IMG/VR virus record: IMGVR_UViG_3300026263_000023
Location: 1 to 20,123 of that record
DNA from: a virus
Length of the DNA stretch: 20,123 bases
Direction: 5' to 3' (one strand)
Positions 9,122 through 19,033 of this stretch are shown here, one piece after another. Numbering within the stretch: position 1 is the stretch's first letter; each line of letters opens with the position of its first letter. The notes under the pieces were generated by a model, which did no database searches, was not told the DNA's origin, and worked only from the letters and a program-made list of their open reading frames with translations. The position numbers and the translations under genes are program-made.

Positions 9122-10492
9122 TTACTTGTTAGGAATTGAATCTCTAATTAAAAGCAATTCTGAACTACAACCCTTCTTAGTGTAGGTAAACGTATGGGCA
9201 GCAATAAGATACTTCCCACTAAATTTCCTATCTTTGGTAACAGTCTCACCCTTCTCGCGAGATCCAGGTATGACCAGTTTGATAATTTCACCCGCACAGA
9301 GTGCGGTGTTTCCAGGCACCTTGACGGTTAACTGAATTGCTTTCATTAAATTATATCTAGCCGCTGCATACTCTGCAACTGCTAATGTATCAAAAGGTTG
9401 AGTCCCATTGTCAGCATTTCCTTTCGGTTTACCACGATCACCTTGCTGATGAGAAATGGCTGGGATGATTCTCATCTTCTGTCTAGTAGGTGATGCACCC
9501 TCCCCCTTCACCTCCTCAGGCATGTTGAATGGTGGACTGGACTCTAGTTTACTAGCTCTACTGAAGATGTCATCAAATGCGGTCTCTCTAGCACCATATA
9601 CCGTGCCTGAGGGTGCAGACTTTTGGTCATTACTAACACCTGACTGTGTGGCATTACTTTCTGTAGGCATAGGCACACAGATACCAGTGGTAACTGTTTT
9701 GTAAGTGCCTAACCTCATGTGCCTGAGATGGTTTGCCTTGTCAGGATATTGAATAGATTCAATATTATAATACCCAGGATCTCCTTCTTCTAGTTGACCC
9801 TGCTGTTTGTATGTATATGTAAAGACAAGACCTTGCTCACATAACCCATCAATAGACCTAAAGTTAAATCCTTTCTGATTTTCAAAGAATAAGAATCCAG
9901 ATTGCTTCGCACCTCCTTTACCAGATGTCACCCTAGTAACCTTGTCTGAGACGTATGAGATAAGGTCTACAGGTCTCCAATTAGGAGATACGACCATGGT
10001 TCTAGAGTGTGCTTCAAAATTATCTTCCTTAATTCTCTTGCCAGGTGCTTTCAGATATTCCTTACAGACATGCTTGGGAATGTTTTCAATGTCCTTAGAT
10101 CCACCCTCATCAATAGGACCGAATGCTTTGAAAACTTTATTCAACTCATTGTTATACATCTCTGGTGAGCAACAGAAGAGTTTATACATCTGTCCTCTTT
10201 CAGATTTGATGATGTCACCAATCTTATAGATTTTGAATTCTAACTTTAACTCACCCTTATCATCTGCTGATAAGGTTTTTAGATCGACTTCAACTTTCTC
10301 ACCACCCTGCAAATTCAAGTTAAAGTCAATAGAGTCCATTATCGTCAACTCTAGGCGTACAAATGGTGCCTCAATAGACTCATAGTAGAGAAAATTTCCC
10401 ACAATATCCTTAATGTCATACTCTTTCTCATCGGTGAATGTAGTTAGAGTAATTTTCTTACACTTAAATTCTCTTGATTGATTGTCTGCCAT
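9122..10492 (-). CDS. Baseplate hub protein, gp27-like (456 aa)
   Basis: The N-terminal half is beta-rich ('KKITLTTFTDEKEYDIKDIVGNFLYYESIEAPF' then 'VRLELTIMDSIDFN' and 'GGEKVEVDLKTL'), the layout of the first barrel of T4 gp27 and related GpD/VgrG hubs. 'VFKAFGPID' and 'SYVSDKVTRVTSG' fit the middle. The C-terminal region has 'IQLTVKVPGNTALCAGEIIKLVIPG' and 'KFSGKYLIAAHTFTYTKKGCSSELLLIRDS', the second barrel typical of hub proteins. Length is slightly above T4 gp27 (391 aa). In T4 a gp27 trimer joins the tail tube to the gp5 spike; the spike gene is encoded two genes downstream here. Assignment is by fold pattern and context. ATG overlaps the tape-like stop (TAATG). Confidence 0.7.
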   Translation of the reverse strand: MADNQSREFKCKKITLTTFTDEKEYDIKDIVGNFLYYESIEAPFVRLELTIMDSIDFNLNLQGGEKVEVDLKTLSADDKGELKLEFKIYKIGDIIKSERGQMYKLFCCSPEMYNNELNKVFKAFGPIDEGGSKDIENIPKHVCKEYLKAPGKRIKEDNFEAHSRTMVVSPNWRPVDLISYVSDKVTRVTSGKGGAKQSGFLFFENQKGFNFRSIDGLCEQGLVFTYTYKQQGQLEEGDPGYYNIESIQYPDKANHLRHMRLGTYKTVTTGICVPMPTESNATQSGVSNDQKSAPSGTVYGARETAFDDIFSRASKLESSPPFNMPEEVKGEGASPTRQKMRIIPAISHQQGDRGKPKGNADNGTQPFDTLAVAEYAAARYNLMKAIQLTVKVPGNTALCAGEIIKLVIPGSREKGETVTKDRKFSGKYLIAAHTFTYTKKGCSSELLLIRDSIPNK

Positions 10493-13400
10493 TACATTAA
10501 GTTACTAAGGGTCGAAGTAAACTCGGGGATGACACCAAATTTAGGCATTAAGAAGTCATCAGCATCATTCTTAGACTTGCCAGGGAGAATGATTTCATTA
10601 TCTTCACCACCCATAATAGGTGCTGCTTCTTTCTCTATAACAGCAGGTGCCATCGCCTTATCACGCTGGGCAGTCAATGCATTCAATTTTTCTTTCTTGG
10701 TTGCAGACTTCTCCTGCTCACTTTTTTCCAGTTTCGCACCAGGAGCAACCTTAGCAAACTCTTTAAGACCTTCTCCTAATAATCCACCTTCTCTTACACC
10801 TCCTTCATTTTTTGTACCAAAGAGTCTATTAATGATGTCATCAGCAGTCTCTACTTTCTTCTCTGTCTTAGTCTCTGCGGCCGCTTCTGCTCTCTGTGCT
10901 TCAGTACGATCTTTTGCAGTAACAACAGCATCCTTCATGCTCTCAGGTGCTGCATGGGGATTATCCGCACCTGGCAAAACTGAAACTTTCCCATCAGGAT
11001 CAACCTGCGCCAGTTCAGCAGCAGCAGATGCTGCCAAATGTTGAGATCTCTTGTGATCAACACCCTGTTCTTCCCACGCATCTAAATTATCATGATATGA
11101 TTTATTATACATGTATGCGATATCTGCCTGTGGGTGAACCTTAATCTCTTTGATATCTGCTGGTACAGATGTCCCCTTCGTACCGAAAGTCTGATGTCTA
11201 CCGGCAATGTCAGACTTCAGACCACCTGAATTCATTACTGCATTAAATTCATCAGATCCTGGTTTAACACCTATCCTCTCTTCACCCCAGCCAAAGAGTC
11301 CTCCTTTTATCTTCTTGGACATTGACTTAATATTTACAACGTTGGCATCAGGATTCCATCCATAAGTCACATAGTATGACTTGTCATTTAAGACAACTCT
11401 ACTTGCTTCATAACTATTCTTTGTATACTTTTCAGGATCAAACTTACCACCATCGGCAAACTTAGGTAGATGACCACCCTTAGAGAATCCTGGCATGGAG
11501 TATCCACCACGCGATGCCTCACCCCACCTCTGAGCTGTTAGACCGGGTTTCGCTCTAGTTGCAGGAGTGTCAAATGGCACAACAAATGCGCCACCACCTG
11601 CAAATCCCTTCATGCCAACCCACTCAGTGCCATGACCGATGAATGATGTGGTAGCACCACCATCTAGTGACACGGGGTAACCAGACTGAGGACCAGAGAT
11701 CCATCCACCCATGGATGCCTTAGGTAGGACACCACCTTCAGAGAATCCAAAGAAGTTACCAACAGCACCCAGGATACCTCCTGCTACTGCCTTCACACCT
11801 TTGAAGATGGGATGCTCTACGATTGATTTGAATAGTTTACCAATCAGTGAGATAGTGCCATTATCACCAGCAATTGCCTCTAGGAGTTTCTCATCCCAGG
11901 TCATTCCTATACCTTTTTCTGCCTGTCCTTTATCCCCACCCTTCATATCTTCTTTATTGGCAGCACTACCACCAATGACAGAAGTTGGTACACCAAAGAT
12001 CTTAGCAAGAGGTGCGATCATTGCACCTAGCATGTTTCTAATAGGTGCAGGGAGGAATGCTCCGAATACTTTACCAATACCACCGATGGCAGTCATAATA
12101 CCAACACCCAGTGCTTTGAATGGGAGTTGCATCAACTGACCGAAAGCTCTAGCTACCTTCATAGTCTTCTGAAGTTGCTTTGCCATCTCATCTTGCAGGT
12201 TAAATGTCCCGCCAGATGCCATCTTAGGTTTGACCATCTTAGCAGTCTGGAAGGACCCTCCTGCTGCCTTACCTTTACTCGTCTCCTTATCTATCTCGGC
12301 TGTCTTAGGTGCAAAGAATTTCAGCACTGCAGTCAGTGCTTTAATACCCATGAATAGTGGTGCAAACATGACCTGGATGCCAATACCCAGGATTTTACTA
12401 ATCATTGGCAGGTGGGGCTCAATGAAGTCTAGCACCTGAGACATTACTGCTCCGAGGACTTCAAAGAAACCACTCAGACTATCCTTAATAGGTGCCATGA
12501 CCTGCTTAAAGACATTACCAATCATACTGAAGAATTTGCCGATTGGTTTGAAGATGGGTTCCATAAACCCACCGATTGCTTTACCTGCCTTACCACCAAC
12601 GAATGCACCAGCAGCACCACCGATCATCCCACCAAGGGGACCACCGAGTTTATTACCAATAGCTTCACCAACCATAGCACCACCAGCGGTGCCTACACCA
12701 GCGCCAACTGCCTCTGAGCTGCTAGCACCAGCAGCTTTCTCGCCCAGGAATGCACTAACACCTAAACCACCAGCAATCAAACCCTTACCGAGTTTGCTGC
12801 CCGCAAACTTCCTAAGCTTGGCACCAGCTTTCGCTGCTTTACCAATGTTTAGGATACCTTTAATCAGACTGCTTACGACCCATCCAACAGTCTTTGCCGT
12901 TGCTAATGGATTCTTAAGGAATGCAATCCCTAAGAATATAGGAGCAGCAGACAGCAGAAACTGTCCTAATCCTATGATCCCTTTCAGAGATATAGGATTC
13001 TCCATAAACTTCACCAGTCCATCAAACGCCGACCCCACTAGGAATGACGTTATCTTCCAGACAAACTTACCAATAGCAGCAAGTCCTTCTACAAGTTTCT
13101 GAACCTTATCTGGATTCTTAGCGATCCAATCTAATGCAGCAAATGCAATGAAGATCTTAAAGATACCACCTAAGAATCTAGCAACAGCACCAAGAAGTCT
13201 ACCGAAAGCACCTCCTGCTGCCTTCTTAAAATTCTGGATTACCTGAGATCCTACCTTCTTTTCCTTCTTTTCTCCCTGCTCGCTTTTATCTTCTGCAGCT
13301 GCTCTATTCTTCTTATTTTCTCTACGCTTATCCTCAGCAGTTTTCTTCTTCTCTCTTTCTTCCTCTAATTTATCAGAAACAGTCTCTGCCTTCTTAGTAG

Positions 13401-13677
13401 CTGCATCACTCTTGATCCTGGCAGATATTCTATCCTTCATTGCTTGAGTCATTGCCTCCGCTTGGAGAGCAATACCATTCATAGATGCACCCAAGGAATT
13501 CATACCTGAGGTAATAGTCTTGAATGCCTGATTTTGATCTTTGGAAATCTTGCCTAACTCATCAGCAGCAGTAACAGCAGTAAATTTCTTGCCACCACCA
13601 CCAGTACCCTTATAAGATATCATCTTATAAAGTTTTGGTTTTGTGACCTTAATTGTTGGTGCTTTCGATGATGCCAT
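10492..13677 (-). CDS. Tape-measure-like protein II (1061 aa), paralogue of the upstream giant
   Basis: Residues about 85-150 are a charged coiled coil (Lys/Glu-rich). Residues 155-280 contain hydrophobic helices ('LLGAVARFLGGIFKIFIAFA', 'IGKFVWKITSFLVGSAFDGL'), and 300-440 a Gly/Ala-rich stretch followed by further helices. Residues 500-650 are helical. Residues about 655-705 include 'SLDGGATTSFIGHGTEWVGM' and 'GGGAFVVPFDTPATR', a conserved tail-protein block. The C-terminus is charged. The composition and length are those of a tail tape measure. The same succession of N-terminal helices and Gly/Ala region occurs in the upstream giant, so the two are paralogues. Unlike that one, it has no hydrolase domain. 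ATG overlaps the upstream stop (TAATG) and lacks a Shine-Dalgarno sequence. Which giant fills the T4 gp29 role is not decided. Confidence 0.75.
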   Translation of the reverse strand: MASSKAPTIKVTKPKLYKMISYKGTGGGGKKFTAVTAADELGKISKDQNQAFKTITSGMNSLGASMNGIALQAEAMTQAMKDRISARIKSDAATKKAETVSDKLEEEREKKKTAEDKRRENKKNRAAAEDKSEQGEKKEKKVGSQVIQNFKKAAGGAFGRLLGAVARFLGGIFKIFIAFAALDWIAKNPDKVQKLVEGLAAIGKFVWKITSFLVGSAFDGLVKFMENPISLKGIIGLGQFLLSAAPIFLGIAFLKNPLATAKTVGWVVSSLIKGILNIGKAAKAGAKLRKFAGSKLGKGLIAGGLGVSAFLGEKAAGASSSEAVGAGVGTAGGAMVGEAIGNKLGGPLGGMIGGAAGAFVGGKAGKAIGGFMEPIFKPIGKFFSMIGNVFKQVMAPIKDSLSGFFEVLGAVMSQVLDFIEPHLPMISKILGIGIQVMFAPLFMGIKALTAVLKFFAPKTAEIDKETSKGKAAGGSFQTAKMVKPKMASGGTFNLQDEMAKQLQKTMKVARAFGQLMQLPFKALGVGIMTAIGGIGKVFGAFLPAPIRNMLGAMIAPLAKIFGVPTSVIGGSAANKEDMKGGDKGQAEKGIGMTWDEKLLEAIAGDNGTISLIGKLFKSIVEHPIFKGVKAVAGGILGAVGNFFGFSEGGVLPKASMGGWISGPQSGYPVSLDGGATTSFIGHGTEWVGMKGFAGGGAFVVPFDTPATRAKPGLTAQRWGEASRGGYSMPGFSKGGHLPKFADGGKFDPEKYTKNSYEASRVVLNDKSYYVTYGWNPDANVVNIKSMSKKIKGGLFGWGEERIGVKPGSDEFNAVMNSGGLKSDIAGRHQTFGTKGTSVPADIKEIKVHPQADIAYMYNKSYHDNLDAWEEQGVDHKRSQHLAASAAAELAQVDPDGKVSVLPGADNPHAAPESMKDAVVTAKDRTEAQRAEAAAETKTEKKVETADDIINRLFGTKNEGGVREGGLLGEGLKEFAKVAPGAKLEKSEQEKSATKKEKLNALTAQRDKAMAPAVIEKEAAPIMGGEDNEIILPGKSKNDADDFLMPKFGVIPEFTSTLSNLM

Positions 13678-16600
13678 TACTTAGTGAGGAGTGGCGAAGG
13701 TTTGGTGTATACTGCGCTGGTGTTACCTTTTGTATTTATCTGTTGTGTAACCTTTTGTATAACCAATTTCTCCGCAATAACGGGTACAAATTCTGATTCT
13801 TCTTCATCACGCTGTGCTTTTTCCCTAATCGCCTTTAGTTTAGCGTTAGCGCCTTCTGGTCTAGCTGCTGTGATTTTAGATGCTGCAGCGACTGTGGATG
13901 AAGACTCAGTAGAAGATGTTGGTGGTTTAGATTCAGTAGTAGGAGTAGTAGGTTGTGCTGATTCATTGACGTTGGTGTTGATCGTTGTCAAGGCAGTTGT
14001 TAAACCTGTCTTGAATGCCTCCAGCATCTCTTCAAGAGTTTTGGGTTTTTCAGGTTTGGGATCCTCTCCACCTCCATTCCTAGAAATACCTGAATTAGTG
14101 CTACTATCCTGTGATGCTGATGTTGTTACCCCATCATGTGCTGCAGTATTACCTTGTGGGTGTGTAAGGGCAACAATCTCTTTTACATTACTATAGACAG
14201 CACCAACTGTTTTCCCTTTATGCTTGAAGTCAGATTGCCAGTGACCACTCCAAAGTGCAGCACCACCATTTTGAGCAATAGCAGCATCATTACCACTAGA
14301 TCCACCATTCCAATCCCAACCATGTCTAGTATTAAAGATTAGAGATCCACTAGGAACGAGACCATCAACTACAGCATCTGCCCACTGAGTCTCCGTCATG
14401 GAAGTTACACCAAAGTCGCCAAACGCACCTTTGATGTTTCTTGGTTTACCTTGAGTGCCAGGTATAGATCCGTATCCTTTCTTAACTGCCCATGCCATCA
14501 AACCTCTTGGATGGTTTCCAGGATCTACACCACCAGCCACTTCAGGTGCTCCGATTTTAGCACCGTTTGCTTCAGCAGTGTAGATCACGCCAGCAACACA
14601 CATTCCTGCAGGAGTGCCAGGACCATCACTTGCACCTTTAGCAAAATTAAGTTTATCTAATTCACCACCGCTTGCCATCTGGCGGAATCCCTTTTTCATA
14701 CCTCTTTTAGATCTTTTCAGACGCTCAAGCATCCTAAGATCTTTAGGTAAACCATTCTCGTCTACTTCACCACCAGCATCCAACAGTTGGTGGACGACCC
14801 CACCCTTTGCCATCTCAGCTAAGAATTGCTGAGCATATTTAATTCTAGGTCCATCATGATGGACACCTGCACGCTCCCAATGCTTTCTAAACCAGACTGC
14901 TGCTGAAGCAACATCGGTCATACTGGAGAATGATGAGCCTAAAGGCTCAGGACCCCTCATCTCTTGGACAGCAAACTTCCAGTTATCCTCGTTTGTTGGA
15001 GTCTTACTGTAGTCGCCACCGTATGATTGAATAAACTTATCGTATCTGTCTCCAGGTGCAGCATTTGTCCACTGCGCCCAACCATAACCTTTACCAACTG
15101 TATTCTTAGGCCATGGTTTTGAGTTTTGTCCGAAGGGTCCACCTTCCCTAATACCAGGAATAAACCCTGCTGATTCATGTGCAAAGTTACCAGCAATTGC
15201 CGCTGCTGCTTCCTTTGTGATACCTAATTCACTCTTGAAATTCTTGGCAATATTTACGCCCTTTGCTTGGACGCTACCACTATTAGCATTACCAGAAAAA
15301 GTTCCTACTGGTCCGCCAGGAGTCTGAGTAGGGGCATTATTACCATTATTACCGCTATTATTTCTCTGGTTCTCAATATCCTTTGCCTTTGAAGGATCAA
15401 ATATCTTGATGCCCTCGACGAGCATCTTATTTAATCCTTTATCAATCGCATTGTAAGTCTTTTCTTTATGGGTGAAATTCTTTACATTATCAACCTTTTT
15501 CTGCTCAGTCTGAGTTGCTTGGAATTGTACACTATTAGTTACACCACCAGCAGTGCCACCACCGCCAGTACTGACCTGCACACCTAATCCACTAGCGATC
15601 TTTTGAATGTCAGGTGCTAGGACAGATTTTACTTTGTTACCAACAAATCCAAATGCACCAAATGATCCGACTATGGTCTTAAGGTAAATGCCACCTGTAG
15701 CAGCAAGCATGTCAGGATGACTACCAAACTGCAAAGCACCACCCGCTGCCATCCCTACAGGACCGCCTGCTGCCTTCTTATTCTCACCATCAAAGTCAAA
15801 TAGGTTGAATGTGAGACTATCAGCAATACCACCTGCCACAGAGGTGGGATTCATTAGACGCTTGGCATTATTGACGATAAATTGGACGGTGGCACCAATG
15901 GCATCAAACAATGGACCGAAGATAAATCCAATGAAGTCGCCCAGAATCTTGGCAGCACCCATCAGGACTTTGCCGAGCTCCCCTATCATCTGGAAGATCA
16001 ACCCTAAAGGCTCTGCAAGTTTCTCAAAGAGTGGTCCGATAACGGACTGGACCACCTTAAACATCATCTTAAATGCTCGACCGATAGGACCGAAAATAGG
16101 TTCCATGATCGGACCTAACTCTTTACCTACCCACTCACCTAAAAAACCACCAATTGCGTTACCGACAATTGGTGCAAAGGGTCCTAGGAAGGGTCCTAGC
16201 AGTGCTGTGCCAGCGATACCGCCAACTAAACCACCAACACCCTGACCGACCCCAGCACCAATAGCAGAGGATGCCTTCTCACCGCTTGCAAGACCTGCTG
16301 CGATCCTTCCAGCGCCACCTACGACGCTCATACCGACGTTTAACTTACCGCCGAGCTTACCAAATGCTTTGTTAGCACCAGCACCAAATCTCTTGCGTGC
16401 TGCAGATGCTTTACCTTTGAATTTAGAGAAACGACTTTCTTTGCCAAATCTATCCTCAAATGCTTTGCCAGCACCAGGATTCTTGCGTTCTGCCCTTCTG
16501 GCAGACTTCTTCATCGCTTCGTATTCTTCTTTGGAGTATATAACTCCAGTCTTCTTATCCCTAAACCCGCTCTGTCTTATCTTCTGGTTAGCATCCTGCT

Positions 16601-17360
16601 CTGCAGACTGCTGGTTGGACATGTTGAAGATCATTCTCAGACGATTAACGTCCGCCATCAACTTCCAAGGCATGATCAGATACTGTGCTGTCCTAAGCGC
16701 AGCAATACCACCCATCATCTGCACAACTCCGAGTATGCCTCGGAATGCACGTTTGATTGGACCTTCTTCCTTATAATTACCTATAAGGTTGGTCAGACCA
16801 TCAAGGAGCAGACCAACCCCAAATTTAGTAATTTTGTAAGCAAACTTACCTATGGTGAATAGTATCCTGAATACCTTTACGGCACTCTCAGCATTCTTGG
16901 GGTTACTTAACCAGTTTAATGCCCCAAATATAATCATTAATTTGAAGACTTTGAATAGACCATTGAAGAATCTACCAAGCATATTTAACTTGGGTTTCTG
17001 CTTCTTAATTGCCTTTCTGCCGTCCTCTTTGCCTTCCTCTACGCCCTTCTCTGCTTCATCTTCTAATCTACCACGTTTCTTTTTTCGGAAAGTTCTTCGG
17101 ATATCCCGCATGGATGAAGTCCACTTGGTTTTATCCTTCTTATCTTTCTTCTTAATATCCGTGACTTCTGTCTTAGAAGTATCTGAAAGATAGTCTTTTT
17201 CAAACTTTAGAAGCTCAGTAGTATCATAAAAACTCTTGGCAATGCCATCCGTCACGCTCCCCATGCGATTGATGCCTTTACGCACCTGATCCATGTTTTG
17301 AGCGATACCTGATTTACCAGATATCGGTTGAATTTTAACGAAACTACGGATTGCTGCCAT
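13677..17360 (-). CDS. Tape-measure-like protein I with tail lysozyme and Cys/His hydrolase domains (1227 aa)
   Basis: Residues 1-125 are polar and charged. Residues 128-200 hold hydrophobic helices, 335-420 a Gly/Ala stretch, and 420-500 more helices, all matching the second giant in order. A Phage_lysozyme2-type domain lies at about 700-850: Glu729 in 'AGNFAHESAGF' is the likely catalytic acid, followed by 'GYGWAQWT' (758-765) and 'DRYDKF'. A CHAP/NlpC-like domain lies at about 910-1066 with Cys921 ('PAGMCVAGVIYTAEA') and His1013 ('SGSLIFNTRHGW'). The C-terminal part is low-complexity (Thr/Ser/Pro). It could set tail length and cut peptidoglycan during DNA entry. The start overlaps the gp51-frame stop (TAATG) and has no visible Shine-Dalgarno sequence, so it probably depends on coupling. 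Confidence 0.75.
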   Translation of the reverse strand: MAAIRSFVKIQPISGKSGIAQNMDQVRKGINRMGSVTDGIAKSFYDTTELLKFEKDYLSDTSKTEVTDIKKKDKKDKTKWTSSMRDIRRTFRKKKRGRLEDEAEKGVEEGKEDGRKAIKKQKPKLNMLGRFFNGLFKVFKLMIIFGALNWLSNPKNAESAVKVFRILFTIGKFAYKITKFGVGLLLDGLTNLIGNYKEEGPIKRAFRGILGVVQMMGGIAALRTAQYLIMPWKLMADVNRLRMIFNMSNQQSAEQDANQKIRQSGFRDKKTGVIYSKEEYEAMKKSARRAERKNPGAGKAFEDRFGKESRFSKFKGKASAARKRFGAGANKAFGKLGGKLNVGMSVVGGAGRIAAGLASGEKASSAIGAGVGQGVGGLVGGIAGTALLGPFLGPFAPIVGNAIGGFLGEWVGKELGPIMEPIFGPIGRAFKMMFKVVQSVIGPLFEKLAEPLGLIFQMIGELGKVLMGAAKILGDFIGFIFGPLFDAIGATVQFIVNNAKRLMNPTSVAGGIADSLTFNLFDFDGENKKAAGGPVGMAAGGALQFGSHPDMLAATGGIYLKTIVGSFGAFGFVGNKVKSVLAPDIQKIASGLGVQVSTGGGGTAGGVTNSVQFQATQTEQKKVDNVKNFTHKEKTYNAIDKGLNKMLVEGIKIFDPSKAKDIENQRNNSGNNGNNAPTQTPGGPVGTFSGNANSGSVQAKGVNIAKNFKSELGITKEAAAAIAGNFAHESAGFIPGIREGGPFGQNSKPWPKNTVGKGYGWAQWTNAAPGDRYDKFIQSYGGDYSKTPTNEDNWKFAVQEMRGPEPLGSSFSSMTDVASAAVWFRKHWERAGVHHDGPRIKYAQQFLAEMAKGGVVHQLLDAGGEVDENGLPKDLRMLERLKRSKRGMKKGFRQMASGGELDKLNFAKGASDGPGTPAGMCVAGVIYTAEANGAKIGAPEVAGGVDPGNHPRGLMAWAVKKGYGSIPGTQGKPRNIKGAFGDFGVTSMTETQWADAVVDGLVPSGSLIFNTRHGWDWNGGSSGNDAAIAQNGGAALWSGHWQSDFKHKGKTVGAVYSNVKEIVALTHPQGNTAAHDGVTTSASQDSSTNSGISRNGGGEDPKPEKPKTLEEMLEAFKTGLTTALTTINTNVNESAQPTTPTTESKPPTSSTESSSTVAAASKITAARPEGANAKLKAIREKAQRDEEESEFVPVIAEKLVIQKVTQQINTKGNTSAVYTKPSPLLTK
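13733..13740 (-). promoter_or_regulatory. Late promoter candidate (GATAAATA) before tape-like protein II
   Basis: GATAAATA inside the end of the first giant gene, 55 bases before the ATG at 13677. It has one mismatch to the T4 late element and would allow separate expression of the second giant. Confidence 0.4.
14811..15260 (-). other. Tail lysozyme domain inside tape-like protein I
   Basis: This stretch encodes residues about 701-850. 'NFAHESAGF' with Glu729, 'GKGYGWAQWT' and the later 'FRKHWERAG' follow the Phage_lysozyme2 pattern, whose members cut the cell wall from phage tails. It is the best candidate for the cell-wall-cutting activity missing from the gp5-like spike. Confidence 0.6.
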
Positions 17361-17557
17361 TAGAGGGACATGCGTGATTGATCTTGTTGTTGCCTTCTTT
17401 CTTCCTCAGCAATGTGTGCGAGGAGAAGATTCACATATACATCACGTTCCCACGGTATCATATTCTCTAATTCTGTTAGTGAATACTTGTGGTGCTGCAT
17501 CAAGGCAAAGTTTGTCTTATAGTAGTTTTCAAGACTATCATGCAGTAGGGCTATGCG
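17360..17557 (-). CDS. gp51: gp51-like hub assembly segment, reached by -1 frameshift from gp26
   Basis: Sixty-five codons in the -1 frame relative to gp26 run from the slip site to TAA, which overlaps the tape-like ATG. The peptide starts RIALLHDSLENYYK and includes 'HHKYSLTELENMIPWERDVY', followed by an acidic and Gln-rich helix. This resembles the short gp51-type proteins of T4-like cyanophages and sits in the T4 order 26-51. In T4, gp51 catalyses assembly of the baseplate hub. The frame opens only four codons before the slip site (TGA) and has no ATG, GTG or TTG until TTG/ATG at 17503/17500, so a conventional start would drop about 19 well-structured residues. Expression as a gp26-gp51 fusion of about 298 aa is the simplest reading. 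Confidence 0.65.
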   Translation of the reverse strand, partial: RIALLHDSLENYYKTNFALMQHHKYSLTELENMIPWERDVYVNLLLAHIAEEERRQQQDQSRMSL

Positions 17558-18255
17558 AAAAAACTCGCGAGTCCTTCAAGCACAACATCAGATACGACTT
17601 TAGTTTTGGGGTTAGTAACCTCAAGTGTATATGACAGTTTGGGCATAGTCTCAAAGAATTTCTGGACTTTAGCAAACTGCTCAGAATTCAAGTCTTCCAA
17701 GAAAGCAAGTGCTTCTTGCTTAGTGAATGTGTCGTAGACTTCTTCCTTATCGTAAACACTCTCGATACACCCTGCTGCCAACTCAAAGATATCATCGATA
17801 TTAGGATTATCTGACATATTTTGACTGATGAATACATCAATCGATGGATACTTCATAACAATACCTACAGTGTCATCGAGAAGCATTTTCTTCTCATGCT
17901 CTGCAGGAATAATAACCTCAACTTCATTCAGAGGGACCATCACTTCTACTTGGGTCTCATTATCATCAGGGCAGGTGATTTTGAATTCACTTGCTTCACC
18001 AACAGCAGTAGCACGAATGCGAAGGAAGATGTATTCGATCTCAAAGGTTGCGAGAGCTTCCACCTTACCCTTTAGATTGGTGCAATTCTTAATGATGGTC
18101 TTAACTGCCTTGATCATCTGCTTGTCGTCTTGCGACTCCATAGCGAGATACAGCAGTTTTTCCTCCTTAACGAGGAAAGGTCTATATTTAACTTGCGTGC
18201 CCGTGATAGGCAACGTCATATCATACTCGGGGATAGCGAGCTTAGGTAAAGGCAT
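17551..18255 (-). CDS. gp26: Baseplate hub protein gp26-like, possible tail assembly chaperone (234 aa)
   Basis: The opening 'MPLPKLAIPEYDMTLPITG' followed by 'VKYRPFLVKEEKLLYLAMES' and 'IEYIFLRIRATAVGEASEF' matches the T4 gp26 baseplate family (T4_baseplate), which includes short-tailed hub subunits of about 210 aa. The middle has 'FKITCPDD' and an acidic region; the C-terminal third is helical with a terminal beta pair ('LSYTLEVTNPKTKVVSDVV'). GGAG lies 7 bases before ATG 18255. The gene follows a tube-fold protein and precedes the tape giants, the slot that lambda fills with tail chaperone G. The last seven codons contain the slip site, so a minor fraction of product probably continues into the gp51 frame. 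Confidence 0.8.
   Translation of the reverse strand: MPLPKLAIPEYDMTLPITGTQVKYRPFLVKEEKLLYLAMESQDDKQMIKAVKTIIKNCTNLKGKVEALATFEIEYIFLRIRATAVGEASEFKITCPDDNETQVEVMVPLNEVEVIIPAEHEKKMLLDDTVGIVMKYPSIDVFISQNMSDNPNIDDIFELAAGCIESVYDKEEVYDTFTKQEALAFLEDLNSEQFAKVQKFFETMPKLSYTLEVTNPKTKVVSDVVLEGLASFFA
17557..17563 (-). promoter_or_regulatory. Candidate -1 ribosomal frameshift site (T TTT TTC)
   Basis: In the gp26 frame the minus strand reads T TTT TTC GCA TAG, an exact X XXY YYZ slippery heptamer two codons before the gp26 stop. A Shine-Dalgarno-like AAGGA (17576-17572) lies 8 bases upstream, an arrangement known to stimulate -1 slippage in dnaX. Weak hairpins can be drawn downstream (for example GTCTT pairing with AAGAC), but no strong stem is seen. 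Confidence 0.65.
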
Positions 18256-18280: not shown

Positions 18281-19033
18281 TTAGGTGCCAAAGTAGGATG
18301 AATCTATTTGATCGGCAGCAAATCCTAAATGCCCAAATACTTTATCAAAGTCACGAATAACCTTATCATTTGATTCAGGTTTGAAGGATAGTATATCCTC
18401 TGCCACCGTGTCAAATCTAAATCTTTCGTATTTGAAGTCAACGTCAATCTTCATAAGATCAGCAGGACCGTTATTGAGAGTCATTGCTGAGATGTCAAAT
18501 GGATATGCACCATACATCTGCCAGACTGCAGTAGATCTATTCATCCTCTGCTCAAATTTAACTGGTCGCCCTTTGCCATTATTAGAAGTGCCCTTATATA
18601 CAATGTTAGCGCCATTCTCCCATTTCAGGATCTGAATGGATGATGTATACTCATCATAGAATGTAACTCTGTTTTCAGCGTCATTAGCAGTCATATTCAT
18701 CCAATTCTCAAAGAATTGGCGATGATACATGTCCTTTGTCATAATAAAAGACATTCGGACTTCTTGCTTCTGCTGACCATATGCATAGTCATATGGCATA
18801 CCAACAGTCTTGACTGATTGTGTCTTAATCCTTCTAGCAGGGATAGTTACACTGTCAGCAAAATAGTTGATAGATTCGTAATGCTCTCTGTAGTCAGGGT
18901 TCGAACCATTAGCATACATCATTGTGGGGAGAGTAATCTCCACCGAGAATAAATTTGACTTTGCAATATCTTTCTCACCAGTGCCGACCAGATCAGCAAA
19001 TCGGAGAAAACTATTGGGATTCCTGTAACTCAT
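18281..19033 (-). CDS. Tail-tube-fold protein, gp54-like tube initiator candidate (250 aa)
   Basis: The pattern 'NLFSVEITLP' then 'YFADSVTIPARRIKTQSVKT' and 'GMPYDYAYGQQKQEVRMSFIM' is that of the T4 gp19/gp54 tail-tube family, in which a beta barrel hexamer forms the tube. 'FFENWMNMT' and 'NRVTFYDEYTSSIQILKWE' follow in the usual order, and 'AVWQMYGAYPFDISAMTL' gives the conserved C-terminal strand pair. Tube gp19 in T4 is 163 aa, and this one is longer, like baseplate tube initiator gp54. Neighbouring gp26, gp51 and hub genes (T4 cluster 26-51-27-28-29-48-54) favour gp54 over gp19. ATG overlaps the upstream stop (TAATG), with GGAG about 10 bases ahead. Confidence 0.7.
   Translation of the reverse strand: MSYRNPNSFLRFADLVGTGEKDIAKSNLFSVEITLPTMMYANGSNPDYREHYESINYFADSVTIPARRIKTQSVKTVGMPYDYAYGQQKQEVRMSFIMTKDMYHRQFFENWMNMTANDAENRVTFYDEYTSSIQILKWENGANIVYKGTSNNGKGRPVKFEQRMNRSTAVWQMYGAYPFDISAMTLNNGPADLMKIDVDFKYERFRFDTVAEDILSFKPESNDKVIRDFDKVFGHLGFAADQIDSSYFGT

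Follow-up and report, generated by a model that had tools for sequence, protein, structure and literature searches.

A probable programmed −1 ribosomal frameshift joining gp26- and gp51-type sequences in the tail assembly chaperone gene of a marine T4-type cyanophage

The end of gp26 and the open frame behind it

How is a gp51-type domain translated when the sequence carries it neither as a complete gene nor in the frame of the gene before it? Phage T4 carries 26 and 51 as two distinct genes with divergent transcription. This two-gene arrangement is absent from the window, i.e., the whole 20,123-nt stretch analysed here (IMG/VR record IMGVR_UViG_3300026263_000023; all locus coordinates are on its minus strand), where the C-terminal segment alone follows gp26, in the −1 frame. 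Very probably, this one gene gives rise to two tail assembly chaperones (TACs) through a programmed −1 ribosomal frameshift.

The gp26-type gene (18255..17551) encodes the short form of the chaperone, TAC-N, with 234 amino acids (aa), which matches PF12322 (T4_baseplate) over its full length (E 1.6e-69, 234 bits, curated cut-off 24.5) and phrog_150 (E 3.2e-74). The 3' end of the gene reads GGA CTC GCG AGT TTT TTC GCA TAG and thereby includes the slippery heptamer T TTT TTC (17563..17557), in phase as X XXY YYZ and separated by one sense codon (GCA) from the 0-frame TAG stop that ends TAC-N (17553..17551). A Shine-Dalgarno (SD)-like AAGGA is located 8 nt 5' of the heptamer (17576..17572). Among 5,948 codon positions in the main genes of the window, TTTTTTC occurs in phase once only, while in-phase XXXYYYZ heptamers of any kind number 23. 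The −1 frame extension, TAC-C (17557..17360), consists of 65 codons (17557..17363) followed by a TAA (17362..17360) that overlaps the ATG of the next gene as TAATG. Upstream of the slip site, this frame is closed by a TGA at 17578, and its first start codons are a TTG at codon 19 and then an ATG at codon 20. Together, 233 gp26 codons and the 65 codons of the −1 frame would encode a joined product of 298 aa, TAC-NC, with LEGLASFFRIALLHD and LEGLASFFRIALLHDSLENYYK predicted as junction peptide sequences. Of these elements, the original prediction had described the gp26 ending with a heptamer near its stop and AAGGA 8 nt upstream, the 65-codon frame ending on TAATG, and a −1 frame closed by TGA and devoid of starts before codon 19, and each agrees with the sequence. 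The −1 segment matches phrog_634, annotated as 'baseplate hub assembly catalyst' (E 6.9e-31), as well as the C-terminal end of phrog_150, and a HaeIII-type Pfam match of the same segment (E 0.027) was rejected as chance.

The gene order at the locus is tube, TAC, tape, with the tape assigned by similarity and position. Upstream of gp26, a tail-tube-like gene (19033..18281) matches phrog_45 tail tube (E 4.6e-41) and PF23849 (E 2.5e-10), whereas the gene behind TAC-C (17360..13677; 1,227 aa) is tape-measure-like, carries Phage_lysozyme2 (PF18013, E 1.4e-18) and is the likely client of the chaperone. In phage Cr30, an annotated tape measure gene follows the −1 frame after one small ORF, and in phiM12 the gene after the −1 frame is annotated 'similarity to tape measure'. 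The analogy with lambda G/GT and the tube-tape position, both proposed at the outset, are strongly supported by the comparative evidence. In addition, the tape-like gene and the gene following it (10492..13677; 1,061 aa) are consecutive, very large, tape/lysin-like genes with related N-terminal profile matches (phrog_1200 and phrog_17500), which suggests duplication or splitting of a tape-measure module behind the chaperone gene. Among cultured phages, S-WAM1 of Synechococcus (Kyanoviridae) is the nearest relative (70% identity), and two IMG/VR contigs encode an identical gp26.

Conservation of the slip site and selection on the −1 frame

The original prediction had proposed an alignment across T4-type cyanophages as a check; here, 253 loci were collected, comprising IMG/VR contigs from six protein scans, isolates located by annotated regions, and the window; the non-redundant set consists of 161 loci. 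In 249 of the 253 loci, in-phase T TTT TTC is kept, always with 0 or 3 nt between it and the gp26 stop. Two further loci, phiM12 and Cr30, have T TTT TTT, with the phiM12 heptamer 6 nt before the stop. The heptamer and its geometry are common to Kyanoviridae, phi-pp2 (KVP40 species) and the Stenotrophomonas and Pseudomonas Milchi phages, and a stop close behind the heptamer is a constant feature. The remaining two loci are an in-frame fusion (L145) and a locus one T short (L257). In L257 (IMGVR_UViG_2974778117_000001, Stenotrophomonas-phage-type), five T instead of six around position 1553 put gp26 out of frame, likely a homopolymer sequencing error because the closely related L256 has six T. 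In L145 (positions 801-1691; IMGVR_UViG_3300049043_000112, a 236-kb contig), gp26 and gp51 are fused in frame as TCT TTT TGG TTA GGA, corresponding to a 2-nt deletion relative to L153, which is 84% identical. A second gp26 copy was looked for in the record of L145 and not found, and the locus represents either a natural loss of frameshifting or an assembly error.

In the non-redundant loci, the Phe-Phe pair at the slip site is encoded by TTT TTC in 159/161 and by TTT TTT in 2/161, whereas TTT TTC would be expected in ~22% from Phe codon use elsewhere. Relatedness inflates such codon-pair counts; a control, a conserved Phe-Phe in the same gene ~30 codons upstream, has equal relatedness and is TTT TTC in 3 of 162 loci. 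A run of T could also act on RNA polymerase, which by slipping on the six T would place some mRNAs in the −1 register, and such transcriptional slippage would result in the same fusion; the run of T6-T7 is a conserved feature, with seven T in two relatives. However, a six-T run is short for transcriptional slippage in bacteria, which usually requires ~8-9 or more identical bases, and the length of the run shows no upward drift. Position seven of the heptamer is C, and its constant phase and spacing relative to the stop are what tandem tRNA slippage would predict. Transcriptional slippage is therefore the least probable of the explanations considered here, with a very small chance of being correct.

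Turning to the extension itself, no stop interrupts the −1 frame for 54-67 codons past the gp26 stop in any of the 248 loci followed to the end of the frame, a count from which L145 and L257 were left out. In the non-redundant set, the extension is stop-free in 161/161 loci. This is partly by definition, as its end is set by its stop, but the extension keeps a constant length (54-67 codons), and over the same stretch the other two frames contain a mean of 5.1 and 5.4 stops and are stop-free in 0 loci. Within the 45 codons after the gp26 stop, pairwise comparison of 1,501 locus pairs of 75-95% identity gave a pS of 0.63, a pN of 0.11 and a pN/pS of 0.17 for the −1 frame, as opposed to pN/pS values of 1.26 and 2.89 in the other two frames. 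This substitution pattern indicates that the −1 extension is under purifying selection.

A selected reading frame could in principle also belong to a gp51 made as a separate short protein, from an independent start or through coupled re-initiation close to the gp26 stop. Separate short gp51 genes are indeed annotated in public records, for example in P-SSM4 and syn9, and in many relatives an ATG of this frame lies 2-14 nt past the start of the gp26 stop. Yet no conserved start codon of the −1 frame was found among the loci: the first start lies anywhere from −1 to +95 nt from the stop, varying by relative, and around one quarter of the loci, including the window, have no start until at least 50 nt past the stop, inside the conserved domain. 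Such variation argues strongly against a separately initiated gp51 in general. Furthermore, fixation of TTT TTC at the end of gp26 is not expected from an independent gp51 gene, and the N domain is fused in both T4 gp51 and the L145 product. A separately started gp51 is thus very improbable, if marginally less so than slippage of the polymerase. Programmed −1 frameshifting, as originally predicted, is strongly supported by the conservation of the heptamer, the codon pair and the selection on the −1 frame, and sequence comparison supports selection on both frames as well as the tandem slip site and the fusion.

Proposed mechanism, possible stimulators and structure models

During translation of the locus, most ribosomes would terminate at the TAG of gp26, yielding TAC-N of 234 aa. 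In a minority, the two tRNA-Phe paired with TTT TTC in the P and A sites would both slip back onto TTT TTT, and these ribosomes would translate 65 further codons to give TAC-NC of 298 aa. Tandem slippage of the two tRNA-Phe would be a low-frequency event. By analogy with lambda gpG/gpGT, both TAC-N and TAC-NC would bind the tape-measure protein, which the N part shared by the two would coat, and the rarer C extension would recruit tube subunits.

Candidate stimulators of the shift were considered on both sides of the slip site. Downstream, a stimulatory RNA structure was rejected: none was found in the single sequence of the window (z +1.35), and RNAalifold revealed no consensus structure among 14 relatives, just two uninformative pairs. 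Upstream, AAGGA is a plausible SD-like candidate and may have a stimulatory role, but it could also be a by-product of Glu-Gly codons. Most relatives have GARGG at −14 to −9, and the motif is weaker outside Glu-Gly lineages. Selection for an SD is inseparable from selection on coding because Glu-Gly codons force GARGG in most lineages.

AlphaFold gave confident models of TAC-N (pLDDT 87.3) and of the protein that L145 encodes as a natural fusion (pLDDT 87.1; 51-76 in the C-terminal extension). One alignment that combined the fusion with gp26 and −1 segments misplaced its short rows and was set aside, and other alignments were used for folding. In the L145 model, a single helix (residues 234-259) spans the junction and is followed by a short and then a long helix. 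When TAC-N was compared with PDB chains, 2ob9, a tail assembly chaperone of HK97, ranked first with a weak match (E 1.0-1.6, prob 0.16-0.63), so that the modelled fold is suggestive of a likeness to the HK97 TAC that is not significant. Among BFVD entries, those ranking highest are gp26-type proteins from other T4-like phages, labelled baseplate hub or hub assembly chaperone, and lower matches include unnamed proteins of other phages. A profile search of PDB sequences found no credible relative.

Relation to T4 genes 26 and 51 and to known systems

As reviewed in PMC3004832, T4 gp26 and gp51 are both hub assembly chaperones, and gp51 is required for assembly and absent from the virion. T4 gp26 (208 aa) spans the full PF12322 profile (E 8.8e-64), and residues 1-201 of T4 gp51 (249 aa) match the whole of the same family (E 3.9e-52). 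Unlike gp26, T4 gp51 stays aligned with phrog_150 as far as position 280 and ends in a stretch that matches phrog_634; by direct profile comparison, the −1 segment aligns with T4 gp51 residues 205-244 (E 2.6e-4, 33% identity). On this profile evidence, T4 gp51 is a paralogue of gp26 that has the C-terminal extension joined to it, and a complete homologue of TAC-NC. Since T4 gp51 carries both PF12322 and the extension, it is the counterpart of the whole frameshift product, while T4 gp26 corresponds to the unshifted product. The original assignment of gp26 to the G role and gp51 to the T role thus stands in its frameshift logic but not in equating gp51 with the extension, and its description of the two as hub proteins is better replaced by tail assembly chaperones. 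In turn, the essential T4 'hub assembly catalyst' gp51, long puzzling, belongs among the tail assembly chaperones. T4 gene 26 ends in GAG TTC TTT GAG, without the heptamer, and its −1 frame was ruled out as a hidden extension as it is gene 25. The T4 pair may have arisen from a frameshifting single-gene ancestor by duplication, after which one copy lost the slip site and the other fixed the fusion, a scenario to which we give an even chance. If true, fixed fusions like that of L145 would be living intermediates of frameshift loss.

The frameshift also bears on annotation. Cyanophage gp51 has been described as ~20% of the length of other gp51 proteins, with the first ~200 residues missing (Sullivan et al. 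2010, PMC3037559), and these 'missing' residues are explained by gp26 supplying them via the frameshift. In S-WAM1 (KU686210.1), syn9 and P-SSM4, gp51 is either a truncated gene with an internal start or unannotated, and the joined TAC-NC product is absent from all three annotations. The records suggest that gp51 is mis-annotated as a separate truncated gene in many marine phages.

Vladimirov et al. reportedly found frameshifting conserved in several T4-like groups, with T4 using genes 26 and 51, in agreement with the profile matches above. Their paper identified TAC genes of T4-like phages (Vladimirov, Gautam & Davidson 2022, PMID 34826709). Passages of later papers cite it for some T4-like phages having a short gene and a longer fused gene, with no frameshifting (PMC10885494), and for poly-T slip signals in the TAC-N genes of T4-like phages (PMC12846349). 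As the principle was published in 2022, the value of the present analysis lies in independent confirmation, extension and correction of annotation: the locus is a well-documented further case of a frameshifted TAC-N/TAC-NC gene, an arrangement that, by these accounts, has been known in T4-like phages since then. The T4-like TACs of that study, as relayed by the citing papers, are of the same locus kind, with polyT slip sites in TAC-N genes. T4 itself shares the PF12322 family and a homologous C extension in genes 26 and 51 but has two genes, no heptamer and no frameshift. In lambda gpG/gpGT there is likewise a −1 shift near the end of the chaperone gene, at the tube-tape position, giving a short and a C-extended form; the slip sequence is G GGA AAG in lambda and T TTT TTC here, where the tail is contractile. 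The lambda G/GT scheme, with its 30:1 ratio, is covered in a 2016 review describing G-T frameshifting as conserved in long-tailed phages 'except T4' (PMC5009743). Finally, in different phage families, Pseudomonas phage Adele and Vandenendeviridae/Andersonviridae have a conserved −1 shift with a poly-T slip motif (GTTTTT) where TAC-N ends, and the −1 frame in these TAC loci is open up to the tape gene, as it is here (PMC12846349).
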